The notes under the pieces are model-generated. The model saw only the letters and a program-made list of their open reading frames with translations. It was not told the origin of the DNA and did not search any database. This document shows, one piece after another, positions 1,524 through 60,295 of a DNA stretch of 64,000 nucleotides. Source of the stretch: Bacillus nitratireducens (GTDB taxonomy: Bacteria; Bacillota; Bacilli; Bacillales; Bacillaceae_G); contig NZ_MAOC01000026.1 of NCBI RefSeq assembly GCF_001884135.1, positions 1 through 64,000 of the forward strand, in the 5' to 3' direction. Numbering within the stretch: the first letter of the stretch is position 1; each line of letters begins with the position of its first letter. A program made the position numbers and the translations under genes.

Positions 1524-1572
1524 AGTGCGTACCTCAAGGGAAAATTATTTAATTTGAGGTGCGCACTTTTTA
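1524..1572 (+). terminator. Rho-independent terminator after the GH1 gene
   Basis: A 14-bp stem (AGTGCGTACCTCAA at 1524-1537 with TTGAGGTGCGCACT at 1554-1567, one G-U type mismatch) is followed by a T run. Confidence 0.85.
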
Positions 1573-1753: not shown

Positions 1754-2608
1754 ATGTCGATTCAAACAATTGGTATTGTAGGTGCAGGATCTATGGGTTC
1801 TGGCATTGCAAATTTAGCTGCACTAAATGGATTTACAGTTATTTTACATGATATTGAAGAGCGTTATTTAGATAGTGCAATACAACGTATGAATGGTTTT
1901 ATGACTAAAAGTGTTACAAGAGGAAAGATGACGGAAGAAGATAAAGAAAAGGCGCTTGGCCGAATTCGACTCACTACAACATTAGAAGATATGAAAGATG
2001 CGGATGTAGTTATTGAAGCAGTGTTAGAGAAGTTAGATTTGAAGAGGGAAGTGTTTGCAGCTCTAGATCGAATCGTTCCTGAAGGGGTTATACTTGCAAC
2101 GAATACTTCATCTATGTCGATAACAGAGATTGCTTCAGCAACGAATCGTCCGGAACGTGTGGCAGGTATGCATTTCTTTAATCCTGCACAACTTATGAAA
2201 CTTGTAGAAGTTGTTCGTGGTTATCGAACGAGTGATGAAACAGTTGAAGAATTGAAAGCGTTATCTAAAAAGCTTTCGAAAGAACCAGTTGAAGTAAAGA
2301 AAGATTCTCCAGGATTTATTGTGAATCGAATAATGATTCCACAATTTATAGAGGCAATTAAATTGCTAGAAGATGGAGTTGCTTCTGCAGAAGATATTGA
2401 TAAGGCTGTTACACTAGGTCTTAATTATCCGATGGGGCCATTTACACTTCAAGATTTTGCAGGTGTAGACATTGGGTATCATGTGATGGAGTACTTCAAA
2501 GAAGAATTAAATAATGATCAATACGCGCCACCGCTTCTTTTAAAACAGCTAGTTAGAGCAGGTAGACATGGCAAAAAAACAGGCGCTGGTTTTTATGATT
2601 ATGAATAA
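1754..2608 (+). CDS. 3-hydroxybutyryl-CoA / 3-hydroxyacyl-CoA dehydrogenase
   Basis: This is an NAD-dependent L-3-hydroxyacyl-CoA dehydrogenase of 284 residues, the full length of the HBD/MmgB family. It oxidises 3-hydroxyacyl-CoA to 3-ketoacyl-CoA in the cytoplasm. The Rossmann motif GAGSMG is at residues 10-15. The catalytic-His segment M-H-F-F-N-P (H140) is present, and the C-terminal helical domain ends with G-A-G-F-Y-D-Y. AGGGGGA 7 nt before the ATG supports the start. It is the first gene of the cluster; the hydratase follows 18 nt later and the thiolase after that, giving a complete hydration-oxidation-thiolysis set without an acyl-CoA dehydrogenase. Because a ring-cleavage module follows, I infer an aromatic side-chain substrate, although short-chain fatty acyl-CoA would suit the family equally well. 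Confidence 0.93.
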   Translation: MSIQTIGIVGAGSMGSGIANLAALNGFTVILHDIEERYLDSAIQRMNGFMTKSVTRGKMTEEDKEKALGRIRLTTTLEDMKDADVVIEAVLEKLDLKREVFAALDRIVPEGVILATNTSSMSITEIASATNRPERVAGMHFFNPAQLMKLVEVVRGYRTSDETVEELKALSKKLSKEPVEVKKDSPGFIVNRIMIPQFIEAIKLLEDGVASAEDIDKAVTLGLNYPMGPFTLQDFAGVDIGYHVMEYFKEELNNDQYAPPLLLKQLVRAGRHGKKTGAGFYDYE

Positions 2609-2626
2609 AGAATGGGGGATTAAGTT

Positions 2627-3406
2627 ATGAATTATGAGTTTTTAATTTGTGAAATTGAAAATAGAGTTGCGATCGTTACAATTAATCGACCACCTGTAAA
2701 TCCATTGAATACACAAGTATTTAATGAACTTTCTAGTCTATTTGGTGAACTAGAAGCAAATGAAGAAGTGCGAGTAATCGTTCTTACGGGAAGCGGAAGG
2801 AAAGCATTTGTCGCGGGTGCTGATATAAATGAGATGGCAGCACTTGATCTTGTCGGTGTTAACAAAATGAATAAGACTTCACGAACGGTATTTAGCAAAA
2901 TTGAAAATATGTCAAAACCAGTTATTGGGGCGATAAATGGATTAGCTCTTGGCGGTGGTTTTGAACTCGCTCTCGCTTGTGACTTACGCATTTGTTCGGA
3001 TCAAGCAAAATTCGCTTTTCCAGAAGTCGGACTCGGAATTATTCCTGGAGGCGGAGGAACACAGCGTCTGCAAAAGATTGTCGGCCAGGGCATAGCGAAA
3101 GAATTACTTTATTTCGGAGACATGTTTGATGCGCAGCGTGCGTTCGATTTACATATTGTCAACAAGGTCGTACCTGCGGAAGAGTTGTTTGAGTTTGCAA
3201 AGGAATGGGCATATAAATTGGCAAAAAAACCACCAGTAGCACTTCAAATGTTAAAAACTGCGGTAAATGTAGGAAGTAATGCTGATCTTGAAACAGGCTT
3301 AATTATTGAAAGCACCTGTTTTGGAAATGCTTTCGCAACAGAGGATCGTAAAGAAGGATTACAAGCATTCGTTGAAAAAAGGAAACCAGTTTATTTAGGG
3401 AAATAA
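2627..3406 (+). CDS. Enoyl-CoA hydratase (crotonase family)
   Basis: This crotonase-fold hydratase of 259 residues adds water to trans-2-enoyl-CoA. The oxyanion-hole region A-G-A-D-I-N-E lies at residues 63-69. The two conserved catalytic glutamates are in G-G-G-F-E (E113) and F-P-E-V-G-L (E133), followed by the glycine-rich IPGGGGTQRL. Having both glutamates argues for a true hydratase rather than an isomerase or thioesterase of the same fold. It starts after GGGGGA and ends 15 nt before the thiolase start preferred here. In this cluster it would act on the CoA ester made by the ligase at 4708, which fits an alpha,beta-unsaturated acid such as a hydroxycinnamate. The substrate is inferred. 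Confidence 0.92.
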   Translation: MNYEFLICEIENRVAIVTINRPPVNPLNTQVFNELSSLFGELEANEEVRVIVLTGSGRKAFVAGADINEMAALDLVGVNKMNKTSRTVFSKIENMSKPVIGAINGLALGGGFELALACDLRICSDQAKFAFPEVGLGIIPGGGGTQRLQKIVGQGIAKELLYFGDMFDAQRAFDLHIVNKVVPAEELFEFAKEWAYKLAKKPPVALQMLKTAVNVGSNADLETGLIIESTCFGNAFATEDRKEGLQAFVEKRKPVYLGK

Positions 3407-3421
3407 TGAGGTGAAATGGAT

Positions 3422-4600
3422 ATGAAAGAAATTGTTTTGTTAGAGGGAGCGAGGACTCCGTTCGCTGAAATTTCGGGATCGTTCAAAGGATTAAATGCAA
3501 CAGATTTAGGGGCGATTGCCGCTAAGGAAGCAATACGAAAAGCTTCTATATCTGCAGAAGATATTAATCAAGTTGTATTTGGTAATGTTCAGCAGTCTAG
3601 TAAAGATGCACATTTATTGGCAAGGCATGTTGGTTTAAAAGCCGGAGCGCCTATTCATGTCCCAGCTTTGACGATTAATCGTCTTTGCGGAACTGGTGTT
3701 GAATCTATTTTAACGGCAGCTCGTTATATTCTATGCGGAGAAGCAGACGTTGCACTTGCCGGGGGAACGGAGAATATGAGCCAAGTTCCACATGTAATAC
3801 CTGGAATGAGATGGGGAAGTCCACTCGGCGGTCCGGCTATAGAAGATTGGTTATGGGATGGTCTGTATGATACGTATGGTAAATGTACGATGGGAGAAAC
3901 TGCAGAAAATTTGGCTGCAAAATATAACTTAACGAGAGAAGAAGTAGATCAGCATGCACTCTCTAGCCATGAACGAGCTCTTTTAGCAAGGGAGAAAGGG
4001 TATTTAAAAGAAGAGATTGTCCCAGTAACAGTGAAAGGAAGAAAAGGAGAACAGGTCATTGAAGAAGATGAGCATATCCGTCATACAAGCATAGAAAAAC
4101 TTGCAAAGCTAAAGCCACGCTTTGTGGAAAATGGTGTCGTAACTCCTGGTAGTGCAAGTGGGATGGTAGATGGTGCAGCGGCAGTTGTTTTAGCATCAAG
4201 CGATTATGCAAATGAAAGAGGATTAAAACCGATTGCTAAGCTCGTTTCTTGGGCTGTAGTTGGGGTAGAACCGAAGTATATGGGAATCGGACCGGTTCCG
4301 GCTATTCAAAGCGCATTAGAAAACGCAAATCTAAATCTAGCAGACTTAGACTTAATTGAAATTAATGAAGCATTCTCCGCGCAGTACTTAGCTTGTCAAA
4401 AAGAATTAGGATTCGATCTTAATAAAGCGAATGTAAATGGCGGGGCAATTGCGATCGGGCATCCACTTGCTGCGAGTGGAACGAGAATTTCTCTATCCTT
4501 AATTTATGAATTAAGAAGAAGAAATAAGAAGTACGGGGTATCCGCTGTTTGTATTGGCGGAGGGCAAGGAATTGCAGCGATTTGGGAAGCTTTGTATTAG
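3422..4600 (+). CDS. Acetyl-CoA acetyltransferase / 3-ketoacyl-CoA thiolase
   Basis: This thiolase-superfamily enzyme (392 residues from this start) cleaves 3-ketoacyl-CoA with CoA, releasing acetyl-CoA. The acylated cysteine lies in N-R-L-C-G-T-G, the N-E-A-F motif and G-H-P-L-A-A-S-G (catalytic His) are present, and the second cysteine is in C-I-G-G-G-Q-G near the C-terminus. An alternative ATG lies two codons upstream at 3416, but the GAGG at 3409-3412 is only 3 nt from it and 9 nt from 3422, so I prefer 3422. It completes the beta-oxidation trio. A hairpin at 4601-4628 separates it from the ligase, so the trio may be a separate or attenuated transcript. Confidence 0.92.
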   Translation: MKEIVLLEGARTPFAEISGSFKGLNATDLGAIAAKEAIRKASISAEDINQVVFGNVQQSSKDAHLLARHVGLKAGAPIHVPALTINRLCGTGVESILTAARYILCGEADVALAGGTENMSQVPHVIPGMRWGSPLGGPAIEDWLWDGLYDTYGKCTMGETAENLAAKYNLTREEVDQHALSSHERALLAREKGYLKEEIVPVTVKGRKGEQVIEEDEHIRHTSIEKLAKLKPRFVENGVVTPGSASGMVDGAAAVVLASSDYANERGLKPIAKLVSWAVVGVEPKYMGIGPVPAIQSALENANLNLADLDLIEINEAFSAQYLACQKELGFDLNKANVNGGAIAIGHPLAASGTRISLSLIYELRRRNKKYGVSAVCIGGGQGIAAIWEALY

Positions 4601-4630
4601 AAAAGCCAGGGGGATCCTTCCTGGTTTTCC
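4601..4630 (+). terminator. Terminator or attenuator after the thiolase gene
   Basis: AAAGCCAGG pairs with CCTGGTTTT around a loop containing GGATCC, and a T-rich tail follows. It lies between two genes that look functionally linked, so partial read-through is possible. Confidence 0.65.
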
Positions 4631-4707
4631 TACATCGTTTATCCGGCTATAAGTATGGGATAAAAAACTCGGGCTAGTTGGTAAGACGATAGAAAGTGAG
4701 TGAGAGA

Positions 4708-6264
4708 ATGAAAAAGGATAAAAACTTATTAGCGGTGTATGAGCTGATAGAATCTATTACTTCATCTTACGGTGAAAAAGAAGCAATATATGATTTAACG
4801 AGACGAATTACATACAAACAATTGAAAAACGAAGTAGATTGTTTGGCTACTGCATTTAAGAGACTAGGAATAGGTAAAGCAGACTGCATCGCCGTATCTC
4901 TACCAAACTGGTCCGAAACAGTAGTTATATATTTTGCAGCAGCAAAATTAGGAGCGACAATTGTTCCGTTTAATCCAAAATATAAATCATTTGAAATTGA
5001 ATATATATTGAAAAGTTCAGCTCCGAAGCTATTAATAGCTTCGGAAGAATTTGAAAAGAATTTTGGTTTTGAAAAAGTACTTAATATGGTACAAAAAGCT
5101 ATTACAGTAAGGTTTCCACAAGAGAATCTTAGTACGTATGAGGAGTTAATGCGTACGGAAATAATGGATATTGAACCAGTAAGTATAAATGTGAATGAAG
5201 ATTTGTTTTGTATATTATATACGTCAGGTACGACGGGAACCCCAAAAGGTGTAATGGTTACACACCGTGCTGTTGTACAATCCGCTCAAACGATAGGAAC
5301 AGAGCTACATTGTACACAAGATGATGTATTTATAATTTCAGCACCACTGTTTCATATTTTCGGTATGGCAATAAATATGCTTTGTGCTGTAGCGATGGGG
5401 GGACGAATCGTATTACAAGAAAAATTCCGTCCGCGAGAAACTTTACAATTAATTGAACAAGAAAAGGTAACCATCCAAAAAGGCGTACCAACCATGTTTA
5501 TAAAGGAACTAGAATTAGAGGACTTTGATAAATATGATTTATCTTCATTACGTGCCGGATTAGTTGGTGCAGCACCTATTCCAGCAAAAACAGTGACGGA
5601 GATACGAGAACGGATGGGGATTAACCTTTGTCAATCATTTGGGATAACTGAAACGGTTTCTATTACGATGACCTCGTATGATGATACAAATCAGAACATA
5701 ACAGAAACTCTCGGAAAGGCAATCCCAGGAGTAACATTGAAAATTGTAGATGAAAATAGAGTGGCGCTCCCGCCCGGAGAAGTAGGAGAAATCGCCGTTA
5801 ATGGATTTGGAGTAATGAAAGGTTATTATAATATGCCTGAACAGACAAAGCAGGTTTTAGATAATGAAAATTGGTATTATTCAGGAGATTTAGGCACCCT
5901 AGATGATCAAGGTTATTTAAGGTTCGTAGGGCGAAAGAAAGAGATGATAATACGAGGAGGGTTAAATGTTTATCCTCAAGAAATTGAGGCAGTCATTATG
6001 AAACATCCAAAAGTAATCGAAGCAGCAGTTGTGGGACTTCCAGATAAAGTGCTAGGGGAAGTTGCATGTGCGGTCATACGGTTAAAGAATGGGGAAGTAA
6101 GTACAGAAGAAGAAATAAAATTCTATCTTAAAGAGAGAATGGCAATTTATAAACTGCCAGAGAAAGTGATCTTTACTAATGAATTTCCTGTAACAGCAAG
6201 TGGGAAAATTCAAAAGTTGAAACTGAGAGAACAAGTATCTTCTAATATTAGTCCAACAGTTTGA
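4708..6264 (+). CDS. Acyl-CoA synthetase (AMP-dependent ligase)
   Basis: This ANL-superfamily ligase activates a carboxylic acid through an acyl-adenylate and then forms the CoA thioester. Visible motifs: the P-loop Y-T-S-G-T-T-G-T-P-K-G about a third of the way in; Q-S-F-G-I-T-E-T; Y-S-G-D-L-G; the hinge segment G-R-K-K-E-M-I-I-R-G-G; and the C-terminal catalytic lysine in S-G-K-I-Q-K. About 518 residues is normal for this family. A GTG at 4696 is in frame, but the ATG at 4708 follows a better purine-rich stretch; neither start is strongly marked. It lies just upstream of the thioesterase and aromatic hydroxylase. The natural substrate cannot be read from sequence; an aromatic acid is inferred from context, and a medium- or long-chain fatty acid is the alternative. 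Confidence 0.88.
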   Translation: MKKDKNLLAVYELIESITSSYGEKEAIYDLTRRITYKQLKNEVDCLATAFKRLGIGKADCIAVSLPNWSETVVIYFAAAKLGATIVPFNPKYKSFEIEYILKSSAPKLLIASEEFEKNFGFEKVLNMVQKAITVRFPQENLSTYEELMRTEIMDIEPVSINVNEDLFCILYTSGTTGTPKGVMVTHRAVVQSAQTIGTELHCTQDDVFIISAPLFHIFGMAINMLCAVAMGGRIVLQEKFRPRETLQLIEQEKVTIQKGVPTMFIKELELEDFDKYDLSSLRAGLVGAAPIPAKTVTEIRERMGINLCQSFGITETVSITMTSYDDTNQNITETLGKAIPGVTLKIVDENRVALPPGEVGEIAVNGFGVMKGYYNMPEQTKQVLDNENWYYSGDLGTLDDQGYLRFVGRKKEMIIRGGLNVYPQEIEAVIMKHPKVIEAAVVGLPDKVLGEVACAVIRLKNGEVSTEEEIKFYLKERMAIYKLPEKVIFTNEFPVTASGKIQKLKLREQVSSNISPTV

Positions 6265-6284
6265 TAGATAGGAGGGAAGACATA

Positions 6285-6701
6285 ATGGAAGAATATGCTT
6301 TTCAAGTAAGGTGGGGAGACACAGATGCTGCGGGCATTGTGTATTATCCTAATTTTTATAAATGGATGGACGAAGCAACCCATGAATACTTTAAAAAAAT
6401 TGGTTATCCTTCAGTCGAACTTTACGAAGAACAACAAATTGGTTTGCCCTTACTAGAAGCAAAATGCCAATTTAAGTCGCCTCTTCGTTTTGAAGACCAA
6501 GTAGTTGTGAAAAGTACTGTGAATGAATTGCATAATAAAGTTTTTACAATTCAACATGTTTTTGTAAAAGGCGAACAGGTCGTGGCAGAAGGTTATGAAA
6601 CGCGTGCATGGACTTCTTTTAAAGAAAAAGTGAAAGCGCAACCAATACCTGAATATATTCGGCAGAAGATGATGCCGGAGATCAAAACTGTGGAAAGTTA
6701 A
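6285..6701 (+). CDS. Hot-dog fold acyl-CoA thioesterase (4-hydroxybenzoyl-CoA thioesterase type)
   Basis: This 138-residue single-domain hot-dog protein carries the 4-HBT signature V-R-W-G-D-T-D-A-A-G-I-V-Y-Y-P, in which the aspartate is the catalytic residue of the Pseudomonas-type enzymes. It hydrolyses acyl-CoA to free acid. The ATG at 6285 follows GGAGGGAAG at ideal distance; an in-frame TTG at 6261 has no ribosome binding site and is rejected. Position between ligase and ring hydroxylase suggests it frees a hydroxybenzoate from its CoA ester, or releases gentisate from gentisyl-CoA if the hydroxylase acts on the thioester as in salicylyl-CoA pathways. Both readings are inference. Confidence 0.86.
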   Translation: MEEYAFQVRWGDTDAAGIVYYPNFYKWMDEATHEYFKKIGYPSVELYEEQQIGLPLLEAKCQFKSPLRFEDQVVVKSTVNELHNKVFTIQHVFVKGEQVVAEGYETRAWTSFKEKVKAQPIPEYIRQKMMPEIKTVES

Positions 6702-6756
6702 AGAAGGACGAGCAAAGATATCGTAACTAGAAATTGTTAATAAAGGGGAGATATTG

Positions 6757-7985
6757 ATGGGAAAAGAAAAAAATATGATGCCATTGTTGTTGGTGCGGGA
6801 CCAGTTGGACTTGTAGCAGGACTTGCATTACAAAAGAAGGGAATATCAACGTTAGTAATAGAGGCAGATTCATTCGGAAGACCCCGTCCAGGAAGCAGAG
6901 CAATTTATTTGCACAGTGCTTCGTTAAAACTACTGGAGGAGACTGCCGAAGGTCTTGGTTTTACACTTGCTCATAACGGAATTATTTGGCCTGTAAAACG
7001 AACATTTTATAAAGGTAAAGAAGTATATGTAAGAAATTATGGTAAGGATGAAAACCTTAAGTTCAACAGATTGCCTCATTTCACAGCTCTTCACCAAGAT
7101 GAGATTGAAAAGCATATGTATGAGGCTTGTATAAATACGGGCGTTGAATTCCTTTGGGATGCTCCAGTTAAAAAGTTACACATTACAGACTCTGGAGTAG
7201 AAGTAACAATTACAAATGACGAAATTTTAAAGGCGCAGTATGTAATTGGATGTGATGGAGCACGTTCAATTGTAAGAGAGCAAGCGGGATTAACGTTTGA
7301 AGGTCCGCGCACAGCAGATACTTTTATCGTCGTAGATGCGAAAGAAGATGAAACAGATCCACTTCCTTTAGAAAGAATATTCCATTATCAGCATCCAGCT
7401 ATGGAGGGAAGAAATGTAATGTTTGTTCCGTTTAAAGGGGGATGGCGTATCGATTTACAACTGCTTGAGTCAGATAACCCAGATGATTATACAAATATTG
7501 AAAGTGTTAAGAAATGGTTACCGAAAGTCATGGATGCTAAGTACGCTGAGAGGATTACGTGGGTGTCTTCCTATCGTTTCCATCAAGTAGTGGCAAATTC
7601 ATTTACTGACGAAAAACGTCGTGTTCTTCTAGCTGGGGAAGCAGCGCACTTATTCGCCCCATTCGGAGCACGTGGATTAAACTCTGGAATTCCAGATGCT
7701 GTTCTCGCTGCGAGAGGTATTGAGAAGGCGCTACAATCTAACTCTGAAGAAGAGCGGATAAACGCGATTGAAGCAGCTGCAAACGAACGCCGAATTGCAG
7801 CTAAATGGAACCGAGATGCTTCAACTACTGCGCTTCATCACCTTCAGGGGAACTCTCCTGAAATGAACATGAAACGCGACATTGCTGCTTCAATGGTATC
7901 TATCGTTCCAAGGCTTGGAAGATGGCTTGATGAGGGGCCATACGGACCGAAATTTGGACCTCCTGAACTGACAACGAAATATTAA
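6757..7985 (+). pseudogene. FAD-dependent aromatic hydroxylase (PheA/TfdB/MhpA type), 5' frameshift in an A7 tract
   Basis: The gene encodes a class A flavoprotein monooxygenase of about 409 residues if intact, probably producing gentisate from a hydroxybenzoate with NAD(P)H and O2. The ATG at 6757 has a good ribosome binding site (GGGGAG at 6745-6750), but this frame runs only 19 codons. The dinucleotide-binding segment V-G-A-G-P-V-G and the rest of the protein are in the next frame from 6774. One extra A in the run at 6767-6773 would join them as M-G-K-E-K-K-Y-D-A-I-V-V-G-A-G. Further motifs downstream are intact: G-C-D-G-A-R-S (NAD(P)H/FAD) and L-L-A-G-E-A-A-H, a variant of the usual GDAAH. 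The only usable start in the long frame is TTG at 6909, which would omit the FAD Rossmann motif. Possible explanations are a mutation, slippage at the A tract, or a base-calling error. Confidence 0.82.
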
Positions 7986-8040
7986 AAGTATAAAAATATT
8001 TAGATGGGTAACATGAACGATATGAAAGGAGCGATAAGAA

Positions 8041-8598
8041 ATGGCTTTGTCTCAATTCATGAGTGAAGAAAAATATGGTTCTCATGCACGTTCTACAAAT
8101 GGAATGATTGAACGGTTAATGACGATGAACTGGTATTGCAACATTGGACAGCAAAATGTAGAAGCTGAGAAGAAAATGGATCAATTTATGAGTTCTCTAA
8201 ACATTAGTGAATATGAAATCAAATGGATTTCAAGAAAACAATTAAATGAAACAATTGAGCGGATTTCATTTGAAGATAACGATTTATGGGGGGCACTAGC
8301 AGCAGCACCTGATCAATTGAAAGAAAAAATTGAGCGCGCTGATAACGAAAAACTTCTTGTAGATGTAGTAGATAAAGTACCAGAAGCAATCTTTCATGGC
8401 GTTTTTAAAGAAGCTTTCAAGCATTTTGGAGAGGAAAAGACAGTGAAATTTCTCGTTGGGCATGCGATGTACATAAGTGTTGTTGCATGTGCCGCTGAAT
8501 TAGCTGAAGAAAAAAATGTATTTCTGCCAATTGTAGAGTTATTAGAATTGGGACATATACCACTTGGTCCAGAGGGAAATACTTTCTATCTTTTATAA
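8041..8598 (+). CDS. Unrecognised 185-aa protein in the gentisate cluster
   Basis: I do not recognise a family. The protein is soluble, with no signal peptide or membrane segment. It looks mostly alpha-helical, is rich in charged residues through the middle, and has a hydrophobic stretch near residues 135-155 (F-L-V-G-H-A-M-Y-I-S-V-V-A-C-A-A). The start is well supported by AAAGGAGCG. It lies 55 nt after the hydroxylase and before the FAH hydrolase, all in one direction, so a role in the pathway (accessory to the hydroxylase, isomerase or regulatory) is plausible but unproven. No cofactor motif is visible, and no cysteine or histidine cluster suggests metal binding. Confidence 0.85.
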   Translation: MALSQFMSEEKYGSHARSTNGMIERLMTMNWYCNIGQQNVEAEKKMDQFMSSLNISEYEIKWISRKQLNETIERISFEDNDLWGALAAAPDQLKEKIERADNEKLLVDVVDKVPEAIFHGVFKEAFKHFGEEKTVKFLVGHAMYISVVACAAELAEEKNVFLPIVELLELGHIPLGPEGNTFYLL

Positions 8599-8612
8599 CA
8601 AAAAGTGGGCTG

Positions 8613-8663
8613 GAAAGTTATACGCTACTATCGTTCTCGATTATTTGAGAAGGTAGAACTTTC
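8613..8663 (+). other. Nested hairpin between the 185-aa gene and the FAH hydrolase gene
   Basis: GAAAGTT at 8613-8619 pairs with AACTTTC at 8657-8663. An inner stem (CTATCGTTCTC-like arm with GAGAA-GGTAG) lies between them. There is no T run, so it is more likely an RNA processing or stability element inside the operon than a terminator. Confidence 0.5.
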
Positions 8664-8690
8664 AATCATTTAAAGGAAAGGGAGATAAAT

Positions 8691-9635
8691 ATGAAACTTG
8701 TTACTTTTACACATAATGGAGAAGCGAGAATTGCTGCCTTAGAGAATGGAAAATTGATTGATTTGCATGCTGCTTATAAAACGAAATTGACCAGCGAAGG
8801 AAACATTCGGGCCGCTCAAATTGCAGAGGCGTATATACCAAAGGATATGAATGGATTTTTACAAGGTGGAACAGAAAGCATGAATTTAGCAAAAGATGCG
8901 ATTGCTTATGCACTTATGAAAAATCATGAAGATAAATTGGTATTTGAAGAAGGTGAAGTGAAAATAGAAGCTCCAGTACCGGCGCCAGGAAAAATTATAT
9001 GTGTAGGTCACAATTATCGTGAGCATATTTTGGAAATGAAACGAGAATTACCTGCATTTCCGGTCATCTTTGCGAAGTTTGCGAATACAGTAATCGGTCC
9101 AGAAGATGATATTCCGTATTATCCGATTTCTGAACAACTAGATTACGAAGCCGAATTTGCTTTTGTAATCGGAAAGCGTGCTCGAAATATTTCAGAAGGA
9201 GATGCCCTCGAATATGTAGCAGGTTACACAATTGCAAATGATATTACTTATCGTGATATTCAGCGCCGTACGATTCAATGGCTTCAAGGTAAGACAGTTG
9301 AAGGAAGTGCCCCAATGGGACCGTGGTTAATTACATCAGATGAATTAACGAACCCGTCTGGTTTGGAAATCGTTTTAACGGTAAATGGAGAGACACGTCA
9401 GCAATCTAATACTGCTAATCTAGTATTCTCGGTACAATATCTCGTTTCGTTTTTATCTGGTTTAATGACACTAGAGCCAGGGGATGTCATTTTAACAGGT
9501 ACGCCAGGTGGGGTAGGTGTTGCACGTAATCCGCAAGTATTTCTTAAAGATGGAGATATCGTTCGTATTGAAGTTGATGGAGTAGGCGTACTTGAAAATA
9601 AAGTAAGACAAACAGTAGAGGTGCCAGTACTATGA
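8691..9635 (+). CDS. Fumarylacetoacetate hydrolase family protein, probable fumarylpyruvate hydrolase
   Basis: FAH-superfamily hydrolase of 314 residues with an N-terminal FAA-hydrolase-type segment (1-90) followed by the catalytic domain. Motifs include C-V-G-H-N-Y-R-E-H, the acidic metal ligands in L-D-Y-E-A-E-F-A, N-D-I-T-Y-R-D-I-Q, and G-D-V-I-L-T-G-T-P-G-G-V-G. These enzymes cleave C-C bonds in 2,4-diketo acids using Mg2+ or Mn2+. Next to gentisate 1,2-dioxygenase, the expected reaction is fumarylpyruvate to fumarate plus pyruvate. AAGGGAG precedes the ATG. It overlaps the next gene by 4 nt (ATGA), indicating translational coupling. Family assignment is firm; the exact substrate is inferred from neighbours. 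Confidence 0.9.
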   Translation: MKLVTFTHNGEARIAALENGKLIDLHAAYKTKLTSEGNIRAAQIAEAYIPKDMNGFLQGGTESMNLAKDAIAYALMKNHEDKLVFEEGEVKIEAPVPAPGKIICVGHNYREHILEMKRELPAFPVIFAKFANTVIGPEDDIPYYPISEQLDYEAEFAFVIGKRARNISEGDALEYVAGYTIANDITYRDIQRRTIQWLQGKTVEGSAPMGPWLITSDELTNPSGLEIVLTVNGETRQQSNTANLVFSVQYLVSFLSGLMTLEPGDVILTGTPGGVGVARNPQVFLKDGDIVRIEVDGVGVLENKVRQTVEVPVL

Positions 9636-10132
9636 CGAAAAGTTTGCAAATCCACGCAGCCGAATCTGTTTATGAATCAATCGATAAGATCAAGACTATT
9701 GTTAAGCCTTTGCCAGAGGAAATCATCTATTGGAAACCTTCAGAAGATGAATGGTCAATTATGCAAATTATTACACATGTAGCGGAAGCTGTCCCGTATT
9801 GGGCAAAAGAAATTAACAATATTAAATTGAACCATGAAAACTTATGGGGGCGTGGTTTAACAGATGAAGTACGTCTACAAGCAGTATCAGAAGAGAATAT
9901 TAATAATCAGTCTATAGAAGAAGTCATAGAGCAGTTGTATTCTATACCACTTATCATAGAAAATGTACTAAACACATTAACAGACGAAGAGTTAAATATT
10001 CAGGCTCCAAGTCGCAATCCCCGATTTAACAATAAGTCGATTGACTTTATCGTGAATCACCTCATCGTAGAACATACAGAAAAACATTATAAACAAATCG
10101 AGCGGAATTTATGTAAATTTAATGAACGATAA
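9632..10132 (+). CDS. DinB-fold protein, candidate thiol-dependent maleylpyruvate isomerase
   Basis: This 166-residue DinB/YfiT-like four-helix protein shows the family pattern W-S-I-M-Q-I-I-T-H-V near residue 47 and H-L-I-V-E-H-T-E-K-H near residue 140, which would supply the metal-binding histidines. Mycothiol-dependent maleylpyruvate isomerases of Actinobacteria belong to this fold, and Bacillus uses bacillithiol instead. Here the gene is translationally coupled to the FAH hydrolase (4-nt overlap) and lies 14 nt before gentisate dioxygenase, the place expected for the isomerase that converts maleylpyruvate to fumarylpyruvate. The fold is well supported; the isomerase activity and bacillithiol dependence are inferred. 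Confidence 0.78.
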   Translation: MTKSLQIHAAESVYESIDKIKTIVKPLPEEIIYWKPSEDEWSIMQIITHVAEAVPYWAKEINNIKLNHENLWGRGLTDEVRLQAVSEENINNQSIEEVIEQLYSIPLIIENVLNTLTDEELNIQAPSRNPRFNNKSIDFIVNHLIVEHTEKHYKQIERNLCKFNER

Positions 10133-10146
10133 AGGGGGCAAATAAA

Positions 10147-11259
10147 ATGGCGGAAAAAAATGCTTTTTTTGAAAGTACACTCGTACAAGATTTCAACCGT
10201 GATATAGAACAATATCATCTCGGACCACTTTGGAACGCGATTCCAGATTTAATGAAACATACACCTGAACCTCATGCACAAGCGTACCTTTGGAAAGCTG
10301 AATTGCTTCAAAAGAAGTTAACGGAGGCGACGCAAATATTTACACCAGACCGCGGGGGAGAACGCCGGGCCATCTACTTTCAAAATCCTGGACTTAATTA
10401 TAGAAAACCTTGGGGATGGGCATCGACCACCCAAACATTATATGCAGCGGTTCAATTGATACAACCTGGAGAAACCGCTCCGTCACATCGGCATGTTCAA
10501 AATGCGTTACGTTTCGTTATGGAAGGAGAAGGGGCTTATTCAATTGTGCAAGGAGAGCGTATTTTCATGGAACGAGGAGACTTTTTAACAACTCCAAATG
10601 GACTGTGGCATGGACATGGTCACACAGGTGACAAACCGATGATTTGGATGGATTGCCTTGATATTCCGACCATTTATTATCTCGGCGGTACGTTCTTTGA
10701 GCCGTATCCAGAAAAAATTGAACAGCCAAACGTACCAGACAATTATACCGCTCAGCGTTATGCAGGTGGAATGGTTCGCCCGGTTTCAGACCGATATGCA
10801 AAGAAAGCACCACTTAGTTCCTACAAATGGGCAGGGACGGAAGCTGCACTTAACGGATTAAGTCGTTTTGAGCCAGATGCGTTTGATGGTTATGCGGTTG
10901 AATATATCAATCCATCGAACGGTGAAACAGCGTGTCCAACGATTGCAGCTTGGATGCAAAAACTGCCGAAGGGATTCAAAGGAAAAGCGCATCGCCATAC
11001 ACATGCATCAATCTATCATGTACATGAAGGAGCAGGATATACGATTATTAATGGTGTTCGCTTCGACTGGTCTAAAGGCGACTTCTTTGTTGTACCAAAC
11101 TGGGCATGGCACGAACACGTTGCGCTAGAAAATAGTTATGTATTTTCAACAAATGACCTGCCTATTTTAGAAAAGTTCGGATTAGAGCGGAAGCAGGAAT
11201 ATGAGAATAATAACGGATATCAAACAATCACAGGAGAGTTTGAACCAGCTTTACCTTAA
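10147..11259 (+). CDS. Gentisate 1,2-dioxygenase
   Basis: This bicupin non-haem iron dioxygenase of 370 residues opens gentisate with O2 to give maleylpyruvate. The first cupin has P-S-H-R-H-V-Q-N-A-L-R-F, the iron-binding HxH followed by the R-F-V-M-E-G-E-G turn, and then H-G-H-G-H. The second cupin repeats the pattern weakly with K-A-H-R-H-T-H and W-H-E-H. The N-terminal G-P-L-W and the segment N-P-G-L-N-Y-R-K-P-W-G-W fit gentisate and 1-hydroxy-2-naphthoate dioxygenases; the cluster context favours gentisate. It is the last gene of the cluster, preceded by AAAGGGGGC and followed by a strong terminator. Confidence 0.9.
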   Translation: MAEKNAFFESTLVQDFNRDIEQYHLGPLWNAIPDLMKHTPEPHAQAYLWKAELLQKKLTEATQIFTPDRGGERRAIYFQNPGLNYRKPWGWASTTQTLYAAVQLIQPGETAPSHRHVQNALRFVMEGEGAYSIVQGERIFMERGDFLTTPNGLWHGHGHTGDKPMIWMDCLDIPTIYYLGGTFFEPYPEKIEQPNVPDNYTAQRYAGGMVRPVSDRYAKKAPLSSYKWAGTEAALNGLSRFEPDAFDGYAVEYINPSNGETACPTIAAWMQKLPKGFKGKAHRHTHASIYHVHEGAGYTIINGVRFDWSKGDFFVVPNWAWHEHVALENSYVFSTNDLPILEKFGLERKQEYENNNGYQTITGEFEPALP

Positions 11260-11270
11260 TTTGGCTTACA

Positions 11271-11309
11271 AAAAAGCGCCCACATATCATACTAGTGGGC
11301 GCTTTTTTT
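11271..11309. terminator. Bidirectional terminator between the dioxygenase and the ribosomal-protection gene
   Basis: AAAAAGCGCCCAC pairs with GTGGGCGCTTTTTTT around an 11-nt loop. The A and T runs on the two sides serve the two convergent genes. Confidence 0.92.
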
Positions 11310-11323
11310 GTTATTTATATGAT

Positions 11324-13267
11324 TTAATAAGCCTTCAGCACATGAAGTAAATAATCCTTACGATTCAGCGGATTATAATCAACACGTTTTCGAGTAGGGA
11401 AGGGAGCCGTAAGTTTTGTAAAACCACCTGGCCTTGTTGCAAAGATTCCTTCTCCTTCAGTAAATGAATGGAGCATTCTTTTAAAATCCTCTGTTTTCGC
11501 AACAGGTAATGATCCTGTTAAATGGTAGGAGTCATTATATAATTTAGGCTCTCTAAAAGTTGCTGAAATAGCAGCAAGCTTATACATTGCGGTACTAATT
11601 GCGTGCTCTGGTACAGTTAATTCAAATTCGTTTAATGGCTCATATACACATGTTTCAGCTTGCTTTAAAGAATTCATAAATACGAGTGGTGTTAAGTTTC
11701 TAAAGTCACTCGCTGTTGTAACAGGGCTTGCATAACCAGTATGGGCTAGCGTAACGATAATATCGGTAACTTCCCATCCGTATAATCCTTGTTTTATCGT
11801 CTGAAATACAGTATCTTCAATTGCTTTATGAAATGCTAAAGGCAGTGATCCAAGTTCAACACCTAACTTATACGTTATACCAGAATTAAGTTCACCAGGT
11901 TCCACTTTGAAGCCGATTGTTGCGTAAAATGGATTCGCTTTTTCACCCATTACTTCAACGCTATTACCTACGCCAATTGGTTTCTCAATACATACAACTC
12001 GTGTATTTGAGAAAGTGACCTGCAAATTATACTTCTCACAAAGTGTTGTTTCAATAACCTCTTTTTGTACTTCACCGAATAGGCGAATGTACAGTTCATT
12101 ATGAATATCGTCTTTCCACACTTTAATGAGCGGATCTTCTTCGCATAGTTCCATAAGAGCTACATATAAATCATGAGTTCTTTCTTTAGGCATTGCTTCA
12201 ATAGCCGCTTCCATTTGTGGTTCGGCAAAGCGAATATCCTTTATATAATCCGTCCGCTCACCGATAATATCACCAATTTTTATATTACTCAGTCCCCACA
12301 CTTTGCAAAACTCTCCGCTTTGAACAGTAGAAGATTGAACGGCATCTCCATTATGAAACATGCACATTTTTTTAATCTTTTCTTTATGTGATAGAAACTC
12401 TCCGCGCTGTATATCAACATATTTTCTAACGTGTAAACTACCAGAAAAAACTCTTATATAAGCAACCTTTTCTCCAGAAGGTTCGCGTTCAATTTTAAAA
12501 ACAACACCAGATAATGTTTCATCTTGTGCCGATGTATTAGCTGGAATTAGGGCCGGAAGTTTTTCAAGTAGTTCAGTTACGCCCATACCTGTCATGGCTG
12601 AGCCGAAAAAGATTGGATACACATTAGCTTGCTGTATTTGTTTTTCTAGTTCTTTTCTTAATAGTGAGTCCGGTATTATTTCATTATTTACATATGACGC
12701 AAGCAATGATTCATTGTATGGTATTAATCGCTCTATACAGTCTTCATATGATCTATATTCAAAAATACGAGCTTCCTTTGTTCCTTCGTTTTGGACAGAG
12801 TAGAAGGGGAATGCTTCATTTGAAAGGATTGTTTTTATTTGTTTTACAACTTTTTCAGTATTTGCACCACTACGATCAATTTTATTAACAAATAAAATTG
12901 TCGGTATGTTTAGTTTCTGTAATGTCCGCATTAAAATCTTTGTTTGTGCTTGCACACCTTCAACGGCAGAGATAACTAAAATCGCACCGTCTAAAACCCG
13001 GAATGATCGCTCCACTTCAGCTATAAAGTCAGCGTGTCCAGGTGTATCAATGACATTTACTTTTAAACTGTCAATAAAGAAAGAAACGACAGATGCTTTA
13101 ATCGTAATTCCGCGCTGTCTTTCTAATTCCATTGAGTCAGTTTGCGTATTGCCACTATCTACTCGGCCAACTTCTTTAATCACATTCGTTTCATAAAGAA
13201 TACGCTCAGTCAAACTCGTCTTGCCGGCGTCTACGTGCGCGACAATCCCTATATTTATTGTTGTCAT
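11324..13267 (-). CDS. EF-G-like GTPase, tetracycline-resistance ribosomal-protection type
   Basis: This 647-residue translational GTPase has an N-terminal G domain with G1 AHVDAGKT, switch motif R-G-I-T-I, G3 DTPGH and G4 NKID. EF-G domains II-V follow. Its length and the N-R-K-D-Y-L end fit Tet(M)/Tet(P)-type proteins better than EF-G (about 690 residues). These proteins bind the ribosome, displace tetracycline and hydrolyse GTP. Chromosomal homologues in Bacillus may give only low-level resistance. The gene has its own GAGG 10 nt before ATG, and an out-of-frame upstream ORF overlaps its start. A -10 TATAAT on the minus strand at 13365-13370 gives a leader of about 90 nt. Confidence 0.87.
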   Translation of the reverse strand: MTTINIGIVAHVDAGKTSLTERILYETNVIKEVGRVDSGNTQTDSMELERQRGITIKASVVSFFIDSLKVNVIDTPGHADFIAEVERSFRVLDGAILVISAVEGVQAQTKILMRTLQKLNIPTILFVNKIDRSGANTEKVVKQIKTILSNEAFPFYSVQNEGTKEARIFEYRSYEDCIERLIPYNESLLASYVNNEIIPDSLLRKELEKQIQQANVYPIFFGSAMTGMGVTELLEKLPALIPANTSAQDETLSGVVFKIEREPSGEKVAYIRVFSGSLHVRKYVDIQRGEFLSHKEKIKKMCMFHNGDAVQSSTVQSGEFCKVWGLSNIKIGDIIGERTDYIKDIRFAEPQMEAAIEAMPKERTHDLYVALMELCEEDPLIKVWKDDIHNELYIRLFGEVQKEVIETTLCEKYNLQVTFSNTRVVCIEKPIGVGNSVEVMGEKANPFYATIGFKVEPGELNSGITYKLGVELGSLPLAFHKAIEDTVFQTIKQGLYGWEVTDIIVTLAHTGYASPVTTASDFRNLTPLVFMNSLKQAETCVYEPLNEFELTVPEHAISTAMYKLAAISATFREPKLYNDSYHLTGSLPVAKTEDFKRMLHSFTEGEGIFATRPGGFTKLTAPFPTRKRVDYNPLNRKDYLLHVLKAY

Positions 13268-15004: not shown

Positions 15005-15100
15005 TTTTGATAGGAATATATTTACTTCTAACGTAATGTGTTATAATTTGGAAAATAAATATTCTTAATTTTAAAAATATTTAAAGGGGTAGTGAAATGT

Positions 15101-16033
15101 ATGAACATATTAAAGAAAATCACTAACAATATTTCAAAGGTCATTATAGGAAAAGATGAATCGATTGAACTCGCAGCGATAGCCCTTATAGCAAGAGGAC
15201 ATGTTTTATTAGAAGATGTACCTGGGACGGGAAAAACAACATTAGCGAAAAGTTTGGCTAAAAGTGTAGACGCTAAATTTCAAAGAATTCAATTCACAGC
15301 GGATACTTTGCCTGGAGATGTTATTGGTCTCGAATATTTTGATGTGAAGGAATCAGATTTTAAAACGAGGTTAGGGCCTATTTTTGCAAATATAGTATTA
15401 GTGGATGAAATTAATCGAGCTGTACCGAGAACACAATCGTCGTTACTTGAGGTTATGGAAGAACGTACTGTTACAATTGCGAAACAGACACATTCATTAC
15501 CAGAACCTTTTTTAGTAATTGCAACGCAAAATCCTCTTGAATCGGCTGGTACATTTCCTTTACCTGATGCTCAATTAGACCGATTTTTACTTACTATACG
15601 ACAAGGTTATCCTACGAGGGAAGCAGAAAAGGAAATGATGAATCGCTTTCAAACGAATGATCCATTAGAAACGCTACATTCTATTATTTCGAGTGAAGAA
15701 ATAATAAATATACAAAAACGTGCAAGGGAAGTGTTAGTAGGGAATGATGTGCAAGATTATCTTCTTGAAATTATTGAAGCAACTCGTAAGCATGAGTTAA
15801 TTGAAATTGGTGTAAGCCCGCGAGGCACATTGGCATTTATGCGGGCAATCCAAGCACGAGCAATATTAAATGAAAGAGATTACTGTACACCAGATGATAT
15901 AAAACTACTAGCTGCATCCGTTTGTGCTCATCGTTTAACGCTAACGATTGAAGGGGAGATGAAAACGACGAAAGAACAAATCATGAAAGAAATTCTTCAT
16001 ACGATTAGTGTGCCAGTGGAGAATGTACGATGA
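15101..16033 (+). CDS. MoxR-type AAA+ ATPase (copy 1)
   Basis: This MoxR-family AAA+ chaperone of about 310 residues has Walker A E-D-V-P-G-T-G-K-T, Walker B I-V-L-V-D-E-I-N-R-A and sensor region A-T-Q-N-P-L-E, followed by the C-terminal lid. MoxR ATPases help assemble or activate partner proteins, often VWA or membrane proteins. The ATG at 15101 lies 11 nt after AAAGGGG; a GTG at 15092 sits almost on the ribosome binding site and is less likely. It overlaps the DUF58 gene by 4 nt. A second, clearly homologous copy is encoded at 32980-33909 on the other strand. Target unknown. Confidence 0.9.
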   Translation: MNILKKITNNISKVIIGKDESIELAAIALIARGHVLLEDVPGTGKTTLAKSLAKSVDAKFQRIQFTADTLPGDVIGLEYFDVKESDFKTRLGPIFANIVLVDEINRAVPRTQSSLLEVMEERTVTIAKQTHSLPEPFLVIATQNPLESAGTFPLPDAQLDRFLLTIRQGYPTREAEKEMMNRFQTNDPLETLHSIISSEEIINIQKRAREVLVGNDVQDYLLEIIEATRKHELIEIGVSPRGTLAFMRAIQARAILNERDYCTPDDIKLLAASVCAHRLTLTIEGEMKTTKEQIMKEILHTISVPVENVR

Positions 16034-17139
16034 ATCAACAGCTTGTGTATACACCTTTAGCGGAGCCTTTCGTAATAGGAGTTATGTCAGTTGTAGCCGT
16101 TATTTTATGTGTATTTTCAAGTAATCTACTCATATTATCTCTCGTATTTTTGTATTTAATTTTAATAGGCGCTACGCATATATATATTCGGAAAGTATCT
16201 CGCGTTAACTGGAAATACAATCAAGGTAATTCGAACGTTTTTATAGGTGAAACAAATATGTGCAAATTGAAAATTTCAAACAAGTCGATATTTCCTATTT
16301 TCAATATCGTATTTCGATTTAAATGTGAAAACAAGCTAACTTGGAATCATGATGAACTAAACAAAAATCATAGTACAGGTTCAAATTATTATTTGAATTT
16401 CAATATAAAAGGTGGAGGGACCGTTTCATTTGATTTACAAGCTGTAGCATTAAAAAGAGGTATCGCGAAATGGGAAGAAGTTGAAATTGTTATTACTGAT
16501 CCATTTGGATTCATAACGAAACATATAACATATAAACAAGTTGATACGCCGTCCTATTTAGTTTTACCAGCCGTTCCGAAAATGCAAGTTCCTGAATTAC
16601 AAGAATGGTCACGTGGATTTCGAAAAGCGATGTCTTCTCCGCTATATGATGAAACGAAAGTAATGGGAGTGAAGTCTTATGAAAATGAAGATTTTCGTTC
16701 TATCCATTGGAGTGCAACGGCAAAAACAGGGACGATAACTGCGAAAAAATATGAACGAACACAATCTGATAAATATGCGATTTATCTCAATTTACAAAAT
16801 AAAAATGGCGTTTCTTTACGAAATGATATTGAAGAGCTTATTGAATTAACCGCAGGCATATGCAAACAACTGCTCATGCAAGAGTGTTCATTTGAATTAT
16901 GGATTAACAGCGTGAAAGATAACGGATTATTGCATATAAAGAACGGGGATAATCGGAAACATTTGCAAAATGTATTAAAGGTACTTGCCTCAATATCGGA
17001 CCAAGATACGCCTGTATCTTCTTCTTATTTTTACACAGCTGGCTTTCGTCGCAAGGAATTGGATGCGGTTCCTTTAATTCTTGGTACTTCTCCAAGGAAA
17101 TATAGTAGAACGAATAAATGGATTGTAATTAAAGAATAA
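16030..17139 (+). CDS. DUF58 domain protein (copy 1)
   Basis: This 369-residue protein has two N-terminal membrane segments (about residues 15-52), a beta-rich stretch, and the DUF58 core with the signature Y-E-N-E-D-F-R-S-I-H-W-S-A-T-A-K-T-G. DUF58 proteins contain a degenerate VWA-like region and usually accompany MoxR ATPases and a transglutaminase-like or DUF4129 membrane protein. It is translationally coupled to the MoxR gene (4-nt overlap) and 15 nt from the next gene. Function is unknown beyond this partnership; an envelope role is the usual inference. Confidence 0.88.
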   Translation: MNQQLVYTPLAEPFVIGVMSVVAVILCVFSSNLLILSLVFLYLILIGATHIYIRKVSRVNWKYNQGNSNVFIGETNMCKLKISNKSIFPIFNIVFRFKCENKLTWNHDELNKNHSTGSNYYLNFNIKGGGTVSFDLQAVALKRGIAKWEEVEIVITDPFGFITKHITYKQVDTPSYLVLPAVPKMQVPELQEWSRGFRKAMSSPLYDETKVMGVKSYENEDFRSIHWSATAKTGTITAKKYERTQSDKYAIYLNLQNKNGVSLRNDIEELIELTAGICKQLLMQECSFELWINSVKDNGLLHIKNGDNRKHLQNVLKVLASISDQDTPVSSSYFYTAGFRRKELDAVPLILGTSPRKYSRTNKWIVIKE

Positions 17140-17154
17140 GAAAGGGCTTATGTT

Positions 17155-17889
17155 ATGTTGAATAAAAAGCGGCATATGAAGGTGAAGTTTTGGAGTGTAA
17201 GAGTTTTAATACTACTTTTCTTTGTGGTTAGTGCGATCACGTTATCACAAGGTATTGTGCATGTACAAGACATAGTAAAAGAGCGTTTTTTTAGTGAAAA
17301 GAAACCTAAAGAAATTTATAAGGAAACAATAAACAATGAAAATAATGAAGATTATGGCAGACCTTTGGAAGAGACAAAGGTAGGAGATAATGGGAATAGA
17401 ACGACAACGGGTAAAAAATTTAAAGGTTTTGAAAGGGAAAGTTCATGGGGAGACGTATTTTCTATGCTCTCAAGCTCATGGATTAGTATAGCTTTTTATG
17501 TGATTATTGTAATGTCAATTATATATTCCATCTACAAGTACATTAGGAAAAGGTTGACGAAAACTGAAATAATACAGGAGAAAGAATCGGTCACAAAGCA
17601 AACTGTGGTAAGAACTATAAAAGATGAAAAAATCATTGATCAGTCAGAAAAGTCATTGCCTACTGATACGATAAGGAAAACGTTAGTTGAATGGGAAAGA
17701 ACTTTACCATTTCACGAACAGCGAAGGTCTTATGAAACGATGCAACAGTGGTTAAGCAGAATCTGTAGAACACGAGATATTATTCCGATATATGAGTCTG
17801 TTCGATATGGTGAAAAGACGTATACGGAGTTAGATGTTAAGAAGACTATGCGGTGGATAGAGCGGGATGGAAAAGGACGACATGAATAA
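17155..17889 (+). CDS. Membrane protein with DUF4129-like tail (copy 1)
   Basis: This 244-residue protein has a membrane segment at about residues 12-30, a charged linker, a second membrane segment at about 105-127 (S-W-I-S-I-A-F-Y-V-I-I-V-M-S) and a cytoplasmic tail. The tail shares E-T-x3-W-L-x-R-I and Y-x-x-V-R-Y spacing with the tail of the protein at 30736-31866, so the two are third genes of sister operons. It is much shorter than that paralogue (376 residues) and lacks most of its N-terminal membrane segments. No transglutaminase catalytic triad is visible. Domain assignment is moderate. Confidence 0.78.
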   Translation: MLNKKRHMKVKFWSVRVLILLFFVVSAITLSQGIVHVQDIVKERFFSEKKPKEIYKETINNENNEDYGRPLEETKVGDNGNRTTTGKKFKGFERESSWGDVFSMLSSSWISIAFYVIIVMSIIYSIYKYIRKRLTKTEIIQEKESVTKQTVVRTIKDEKIIDQSEKSLPTDTIRKTLVEWERTLPFHEQRRSYETMQQWLSRICRTRDIIPIYESVRYGEKTYTELDVKKTMRWIERDGKGRHE

Positions 17890-33909: not shown

Positions 33910-34023
33910 ATGTATCATTCCTTTCAAAATATAAACGGATATTTCTATATTTTAACAAATTATTCAGAAAATTGATATGATTTTTTAATTTAAAGAAATA
34001 GATATTAAGTTATTAAATTACTC

Positions 34024-59790: not shown

Positions 59791-60282
59791 TTATAAATAT
59801 GAACGATGAGCTGGCCATGAACCTTGGAGTTTACGAAGTTGTATAATTTGTCCTGTATGATAAGCATCGTGCAAAAGGATATTCATATATTGTTGCCAAA
59901 CAGGTAGAGAAGGACTTGGTTGATCCAGTTCTGCTTCTTGAAGGGATGTTAATGAAGATTGTAAGGCAGCATGTACTTGAAGCGTTCGCTTCACTGTTTG
60001 CTGCCAAGCATCCTCATCATTAGGTCCACCTTGGACAAACGTGTCATCATTATTTTGTGGAGCAACAAATGTGTCATCTTGATGTAAGCGAGAAAGTAAG
60101 CGCTCTTTAAAGGTTAGTAAATGGTTTGCATTTTCCCAAATCGTATTACTGGCCTTTCCTTCTGGTTGCCAACATGCTTGTGCAGCGGTAAGATTCTTTA
60201 ACGCTTCTGATATCGGTGGGTACCATTCTTCATCGTAAAAAACTTGTTTGACTCCATTTTGCAATATTTCTTTTTTACCCAT
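59791..60282 (-). CDS. DinB family protein
   Basis: This 163-residue four-helix DinB-like protein has the pattern W-E-N-A-N-H-L-L-T-F (first histidine region, about residue 50) and H-D-A-Y-H-T-G-Q-I (about residue 140), which would bind a divalent metal. The start at 60282 follows AAGGAGG; the frame continues upstream as part of a possible decayed gene. DinB proteins are thought to be metal- and thiol-dependent transferases; no substrate is suggested by the neighbours. It is a distant fold relative of the protein at 9632. Confidence 0.86.
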   Translation of the reverse strand: MGKKEILQNGVKQVFYDEEWYPPISEALKNLTAAQACWQPEGKASNTIWENANHLLTFKERLLSRLHQDDTFVAPQNNDDTFVQGGPNDEDAWQQTVKRTLQVHAALQSSLTSLQEAELDQPSPSLPVWQQYMNILLHDAYHTGQIIQLRKLQGSWPAHRSYL

Positions 60283-60295
60283 CCATATAGCCTCC

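Follow-up and report, generated by a model that had tools for sequence, protein, structure and literature searches.

What becomes of an aromatic acid once its side chain has been activated with coenzyme A (CoA), and can the whole route into central metabolism be encoded in one place? The question is raised by a locus of Bacillus nitratireducens (assembly GCF_001884135.1). It occupies positions 1754-11259 of the window analyzed here, a stretch of DNA covering positions 1-64,000 of contig NZ_MAOC01000026.1. The list of open reading frames (ORFs) for the window places ten neighboring genes there, all on the plus strand and in one direction. In order, they encode a 3-hydroxyacyl-CoA dehydrogenase (HBD), an enoyl-CoA hydratase (ECH), a thiolase (THL), a CoA ligase (LIG), a thioesterase (THIO), a flavin hydroxylase (OX), a 185-residue protein (U185), an FAH-family hydrolase (FAH), a DinB-fold protein (DinB), and a gentisate dioxygenase (GDO). 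Together they probably make up a single unit for the breakdown of a hydroxycinnamate (p-coumarate is the likeliest) by a gentisate route that would involve an NIH shift. The substrates, the position of hydroxylation, and cotranscription are what we infer.

The first support comes from gene content. An initial annotation of the sequence had proposed that the locus takes a CoA-activated aromatic side chain all the way through gentisate to central metabolism, and gene content, conserved catalytic residues, and conserved linkage all support it. Each gene that it named is present on the plus strand at the positions it gave and returned a family match in Pfam and NCBIfam profile searches (Table 1), but it passed over U185, a conserved ORF. 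Most NCBIfam equivalog scores, that of GDO among them, fall under the curated cutoffs, so the enzyme classes are clear while the exact substrate names are not. THL, for example, matches the BktB subfamily best, with 462.6 bits against a cutoff of 565. Residue conservation was checked in alignments of relatives at a threshold of at least 95% of rows, and the ligase, hydratase, dehydrogenase, and thiolase are all present with their catalytic residues, whose roles we take from family knowledge. Inside the unit the genes are 9 to 95 base pairs (bp) apart, with a single 4-bp overlap; the widest gaps are 95 bp at 4601-4695 and 92 bp at 8599-8690. A tblastn search of the window with the FadE-type gene of relatives found no acyl-CoA dehydrogenase, which, as first argued in the initial annotation, fits an acid that is already unsaturated.

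Table 1. Genes of the putative catabolic unit and the hairpins at its borders
Feature	Positions	Strand	Family match or other basis
Hairpin and T run, left border	about 1524-1567	+	fold z -8.6, as good in 0/200 shuffles
HBD, 3-hydroxyacyl-CoA dehydrogenase (beta-oxidation step 3)	1754-2608	+	3HCDH_N/3HCDH; H140, E152 conserved in at least 95% of 22 rows
ECH, enoyl-CoA hydratase (step 2)	2627-3406	+	ECH_1; E113, E133 conserved in at least 95% of 24 rows
THL, BktB-like beta-ketothiolase (step 4)	3416-4600	+	Thiolase_N/C; C91, H349, C379 conserved
LIG, AMP-forming CoA ligase (step 1)	4696-6264	+	AMP-binding
THIO, hotdog thioesterase	6288-6701	+	4HBT_2; best PDB match 5wh9
OX, class A flavin monooxygenase	6744-7985	+	FAD_binding_3, 7e-50; 413-residue open frame
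U185, conserved protein	8041-8598	+	in 29/40 related loci
FAH, FAH-family hydrolase	8691-9635	+	FAA_hydrolase, 4e-73
DinB, DinB-fold protein	9632-10132	+	DinB_2, 4.5e-12
GDO, gentisate 1,2-dioxygenase (cupin)	10147-11259	+	TIGR02272, 306 bits vs cutoff 442
Hairpin and T run, right border	about 11268-11311	.	fold z -6.9, as good in 0/200 shuffles

How would such a route run? As proposed, LIG would convert p-coumarate to coumaroyl-CoA, and ECH, HBD, and THL would then carry out a CoA-dependent, nondecarboxylating beta-oxidation that yields 4-hydroxybenzoyl-CoA and acetyl-CoA. The 4-hydroxybenzoyl-CoA would be passed to OX without the appearance of free 4-hydroxybenzoate. OX would hydroxylate the carbon that carries the carboxyl thioester, the thioester would move to the adjacent carbon (the NIH shift), and the gentisyl-CoA so formed would release its gentisate through the action of THIO. 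GDO would open the gentisate ring to give maleylpyruvate, which DinB would isomerize and FAH would split into fumarate and pyruvate. The closest PDB match to THIO, named 4-hydroxybenzoyl-CoA thioesterase, has an E value of 6e-40, with the next at 2e-13; judged by such matches, THIO is most likely a gentisyl-CoA (or hydroxybenzoyl-CoA) thioesterase.

Are the side-chain and gentisate genes truly one system, or merely neighbors? Related loci were collected with OX as the bait. Thirty-two came from genome contigs, and with L048-L055 the total reached 40. One contig locus, L006, was replaced by an extension, L062, made after a distant dehydrogenase gene was seen in that genome; the other loci lacking the trio of HBD, ECH, and THL kept their original bounds. 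Several loci end at contig ends (e.g., L010, L019, L024, L026, and L029), and the sample, uncorrected for relatedness, includes the near-copy pairs L001/L002, L008/L009, and L027/L028. A gene was counted when its tblastn match met a set identity (at least 50% for HBD) over half of the query. By these rules, the 40 loci hold HBD in 21, ECH in 21, THL in 19, and all three in 18, along with LIG (26), THIO (30), GDO (31), FAH (31), and DinB (18). HBD lies within the standard flanks in 20 of the 40, and the 21st case (L062) is a gene 16 kb away found after extension. In every one of the 21 it is on the strand of OX, 0.9 to 15.8 kb apart.

This recurrence is the more telling for the way in which the genes are arranged. 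In L048 and L049, OX, THIO, GDO, and FAH sit between ECH and THL; in L005, THL lies past OX; L024, L027, and L028 also have mixed orders. Such widely differing and interleaved orders point to selection for togetherness and against the inheritance of one old order. The OX gene is rare and patchy: whole-genome searches matched it in 11 of 398 Bacilli genomes, in 3 of 43 genomes from the family of genome G001, and in 3 of 39 from the Brevibacillus family. In the first of these two families, OX (E value of at most 1e-80, full length) and HBD (84-85% identity) are confined to the same 3 of 43 genomes. One of those three and genome G425 also carry a 68% HBD paralogue. In genome G002, a second trio set lies 14-17 kb from a second hydroxylase and was not counted as linked. 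The coupling of the side-chain and gentisate gene sets is supported by these observations.

Could the locus nevertheless be two adjoining units, a beta-oxidation set for fatty acids or phenylalkanoates followed by a 4-hydroxybenzoate (phg) set with LIG acting on 4-hydroxybenzoate and no intermediate in common? The existence of OX loci without the trio speaks for this, as do trio modules without OX that carry a PucR regulator, an acyl-CoA dehydrogenase, and a thioesterase (L060 and L061) and the two wide gaps noted above. It is nonetheless quite improbable in light of the interleaved orders of L005, L048, L049, and others, the shared strand in 21 of 21 loci, and the restriction to the same 3 of 43 genomes. 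Moreover, no PaaK-like or second ligase was found in the window besides LIG, which is therefore the only candidate, and LIG tracks the trio.

That LIG tracks the trio is seen when the neighbors of OX are compared between trio and trio-free loci. LIG, the AMP-forming ligase, is found in 20 of 21 trio loci versus 6 of 19 trio-free ones. Even among these six, four hold a 687-residue ECH/HBD protein and a thiolase-like gene and one holds ECH and THL, leaving only L012 with none, so that beta-oxidation genes accompany LIG in 25 of 26 loci; the AMP-forming ligase therefore tracks beta-oxidation. (The halophilic loci L015, L017, L018, and L022 have the 687-residue hydratase/dehydrogenase and a different thiolase-like gene in place of the trio, with the same LIG and OX families.) A PucR-type regulator shows a similar preference (12/21 trio loci versus 0/19 trio-free), while a PaaK-like ligase (3/21 versus 11/19) and an IclR-type regulator (7/21 versus 14/19) lean the other way. 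These distributions make the PaaK-like ligase the likely activator of free hydroxybenzoate.

The distribution of LIG also bears on an alternative that the initial annotation had itself raised, namely, that OX is a salicylyl-CoA 5-hydroxylase resembling SdgC, on a salicylyl-CoA or o-coumarate route, in which LIG would activate salicylate and the trio would have some other role. SdgC does form gentisyl-CoA from salicylyl-CoA, as a passage in PMC13215587 describes, and the SdgABC system treats salicylate by way of salicylyl-CoA and gentisyl-CoA (same passage). The window resembles SdgABC in that an aroyl-CoA would be ring hydroxylated to gentisyl-CoA; it differs in the position attacked and offers no sequence support for the SdgABC reaction. 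No salicylyl-CoA hydroxylase model appears among the best 25 of the 62 NCBIfam families matched, and with LIG beside beta-oxidation genes in 25 of 26 loci, the trio is no bystander. The salicylyl-CoA route drew no positive support and is very improbable.

What, then, do the two kinds of neighborhood have in common? A tree of OX, with context labels assigned without the length rule of the locus counts, has 40 rows (L026 and L032 are omitted, L006 is labeled "none," and L030 is labeled PaaK though it fails that rule). The trio label needs 8 changes on this tree, each forced by well-supported branches. In Brevibacillus fluminis, two sister OX copies (support 100/99) lie beside the trio (L023) and beside a PaaK-like ligase (L055), respectively. 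Peribacillus butanolivorans (L002), too, has both kinds of module. With the neighbors swapped and the enzyme kept, both modules would deliver one thioester, a hydroxybenzoyl-CoA; such an intermediate, common to both entry modules, best explains these sequence patterns. A broader speculation, to which we give an even chance, is that beta-oxidation and NIH-shift hydroxylation are joined at one CoA thioester, with no free 4-hydroxybenzoate and only one activation that consumes ATP, and that this design has been assembled many times in the Bacillota from exchangeable entry modules (the trio with LIG and PucR, or the PaaK-like ligase with IclR), with U185 as a helper that travels with OX.

Several observations weigh against a single p-coumarate unit. 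(i) Nineteen of the 40 OX loci lack the trio, and complete trio-ligase-thioesterase modules without an adjoining OX exist in L060 and L061. Both halves therefore occur apart, as exchangeable modules whose linkage is not obligatory, and the separation that the initial annotation had named as evidence against the coupling is found for part of the sample, where each module occurs alone. (ii) Since a thioesterase belongs to the trio in L060 and L061, where OX is missing, THIO may hydrolyze an aroyl-CoA and not gentisyl-CoA. (iii) A FadE-type acyl-CoA dehydrogenase accompanies 10 of 21 trio loci versus 1 of 19 trio-free ones (11/40 overall), so saturated arylpropionates may be substrates too. (iv) The trio label is clustered on the OX tree, with 8 changes versus 13.2 for shuffled labels (as low in 3/500); it is therefore partly a matter of ancestry, although it has changed again and again. 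(v) Neither the ligase matches nor the fold matches tell which substrate is used. Among PDB sequences, 4-coumarate-CoA ligases match LIG at 1.6e-74, no better than other ligases do, and by family scores an aromatic substrate is not distinguished from a short-chain one. (vi) OX is a putative PhgB-type enzyme: no PhgA, PhgB, or PhgC reference sequence was present in the collections compared, which for PhgB were the PDB, plasmids, and the named loci. (vii) The OX frame has no ATG, GTG, or TTG until a TTG at 6909, which is past the flavin adenine dinucleotide (FAD)-binding motif.

The last of these points deserves attention, as it concerns whether the source strain has a working hydroxylase at all. 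An ATG at 6757 has a well-placed ribosome-binding site but is out of the OX frame, and in most of the relatives listed OX starts upstream of the FAD motif and in frame with it. The copy in the window may therefore be broken, or the reading of the frame may be in error; with a possible frame disruption, the pathway may not operate in the source strain. Is the cluster being lost? Decay has parallels elsewhere: in Heyndrickxia coagulans 36D1 (L032), OX is split into two overlapping matches in different frames, and in G425 (L063), it is reduced to residues 305-413, its last 109, ahead of the 185-residue gene. A single frame change near the start could equally be a sequencing or assembly error, however, and the remainder of the 413-residue frame and all of the neighboring genes are open. 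An OX pseudogene in this strain is thus a serious but somewhat doubtful prospect, and it is compatible with a p-coumarate unit in the family as a whole.

Which ring position is attacked? Fold and sequence matches identify OX as a class A flavin hydroxylase but go no further. Its AlphaFold model has a predicted local distance difference test score (pLDDT) of 85.9, and the best PDB fold is that of the p-nitrophenol 4-monooxygenase PnpA (template modeling [TM] score, 0.76). It is 80% identical to Peribacillus relatives, and two relatives in a Brevibacillus genome reach 60-61%. A more distant Streptomyces relative (L034, 44%) is part of a cluster that includes pabB and encodes several AMP-binding proteins, and it is perhaps an aminobenzoyl-thioester hydroxylase. 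OX is proposed to be a 4-hydroxybenzoyl-CoA 1-hydroxylase with a carboxyl NIH shift, that is, of the PhgB type. The isomer p-coumarate is favored because the OX family adjoins a second, PaaK-like aryl-CoA ligase in trio-free loci and is most easily explained as a PhgB-type enzyme. The window cluster also holds what the reported route from 4-coumarate through 4-hydroxybenzoate and gentisate needs, which favors p-coumarate with an NIH shift. The coumarate suggested in the initial annotation thus stands as a hydroxycinnamate, with the isomer likely p- and not o- or m-.

Several known systems are close to this one. The first is phgABC, whose host we take to be Brevibacillus laterosporus PHB-7a. 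As in phgABC, a CoA ligase, a flavin hydroxylase, and a thioesterase lead toward gentisate in a member of the Bacillales; compared with the description of phgABC and not with the PhgB sequence, the window differs on two counts: its ligase is of another kind than the PaaK-like one seen where the trio is missing, and it comes after genes for a hydratase, a dehydrogenase, and a thiolase. According to a passage of PMC7862547 citing Zhao 2018, phgABC produces gentisate from 4-hydroxybenzoate in three reactions: ligation to CoA, a hydroxylation during which the thioester shifts, and hydrolysis. The review PMC7581956 states that Bacillus laterosporus PHB-7a forms gentisate from 4-hydroxybenzoate and degrades it further by a gentisate pathway independent of glutathione. 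It adds that 4-coumaric acid is broken down by Bacillus sp. B-1 through 4-hydroxybenzoic and gentisic acids.

The phd and cou systems carry out CoA-dependent beta-oxidation of hydroxycinnamates. Like those, the window has a ligase, a hydratase, a dehydrogenase, and a thiolase and would release acetyl-CoA. In the known systems, however, a thioesterase frees 4-hydroxybenzoate, whereas here the aroyl-CoA is proposed to pass straight to a ring hydroxylase. A passage of PMC6307125 names CoA-dependent beta-oxidation of hydroxycinnamates to hydroxybenzoate as a proposal. A haloarchaeal 4-hydroxybenzoate route with an NIH shift is known from the title of Fairley 2002 in the reference list of PMC6486533. 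The haloarchaeal Halorussus locus L033 likewise groups a related hydroxylase (46%) with a cupin dioxygenase, an FAH protein, a thioesterase, and an IclR regulator, but there the place of an AMP-forming ligase is taken, among the annotated neighbors, by a CoA-binding protein and a member of the acetate-CoA-ligase family, and HBD and ECH queries found no match in L033.

Might the thioester be 3-hydroxybenzoyl-CoA instead? In that case, m-coumarate (or 3-hydroxyphenylpropionate in relatives bearing the dehydrogenase) would give 3-hydroxybenzoyl-CoA, and OX would hydroxylate C6 to form gentisyl-CoA with no shift. This has the merit of needing no rearrangement, the side-chain enzymes being indifferent to ring position, and OX has no characterized close relative in the PDB (best sequence match, 8e-20). 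However, p-coumarate, which is plant derived, is far commoner than m-coumarate. The accounts cited above include Bacillales reports both of the PhgB-type reaction and of 4-coumarate degradation via 4-hydroxybenzoate and gentisate, while no comparable 3-hydroxybenzoyl-CoA report was found in the open-licence literature. The 3-hydroxybenzoyl-CoA route is therefore unlikely.

The ring-cleavage genes add a pattern of their own. In GDO, the metal-site residues H114, H116, and H155 are conserved in at least 95% of 24 rows, and in DinB, H49, H148, and H152 are conserved in at least 95% of 19. A PDB sequence search with DinB gave nothing at an E value of <0.2. On sequence grounds, DinB is proposed to be a thiol-dependent maleylpyruvate isomerase, and it could be a glutathione-independent one; FAH is, likewise, proposed as a fumarylpyruvate hydrolase. 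Gentisate cleavage cassettes split into two types, with and without DinB. All 17 loci whose dioxygenase is at least 50% identical to GDO have DinB, while none of the 14 carrying only the 38-50% type does; of the 9 loci without a countable dioxygenase, L016 has DinB, with its dioxygenase cut at the locus end. The second GDO/FAH pair type (about 40%/35% identity; L001-L005, L048, L049, and others) never occurs with DinB. So strict a pairing speaks for DinB as the isomerase partner, and it hints at direct hydrolysis of maleylpyruvate by the cassette that lacks DinB. A further protein of the window that looks DinB-like by eye is encoded at 59791-60318 on the minus strand.

What of U185? It has no family at an E value of ≤0.001 in Pfam (best match, 0.11) or ≤1e-5 in NCBIfam. 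Its predicted model is confident (pLDDT, 90.5; predicted TM score, 0.87), yet a Foldseek search of the PDB gave nothing at an E value of ≤0.001. The gene is retained beside the OX remnant in G425, and a copy was found in 10 of 10 genomes searched, nine of which were picked for having the hydroxylase. One guess is that U185 is a helper of the hydroxylase.

If the proposed route is true, it supplies candidate genes for a physiological finding of 2003, that a Bacillus degrades 4-coumarate by way of 4-hydroxybenzoate and then gentisate. The carboxyl NIH shift, recently solved for free 4-hydroxybenzoate, would be extended to a major plant phenolic. Strains with the trio module alone should then use p-coumarate better than 4-hydroxybenzoate. 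The analysis also brings out U185 as an unstudied family tied to the hydroxylase, and the two types of cleavage cassette. Both half-pathways are known separately. No cluster that couples beta-oxidation of coumarate with a gentisate route through the NIH shift was found in the open-licence literature, outside which most subscription journals lie, and one may have been published.

Finally, the borders of the unit are marked by hairpins. The left (1524-1567, or 1522-1569 at its widest) is a probable terminator of an upstream glycosidase gene, and the right is a probable terminator common to the end of the dioxygenase gene and a convergent gene. A simple terminator scan listed neither because it permits loops of 8 at most. 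Just 3' of the unit, on the minus strand (11324-13267), lies a ribosomal-protection-type GTPase gene whose product scores 774.2 bits against a cutoff of 775 for NCBIfam tet_protect, a borderline candidate for a tetracycline resistance protein. Farther along, the ORF list holds two similar sets in opposite orientations, at 15092-17889 and 30736-33927, each with an AAA ATPase, a second protein, and a membrane protein.

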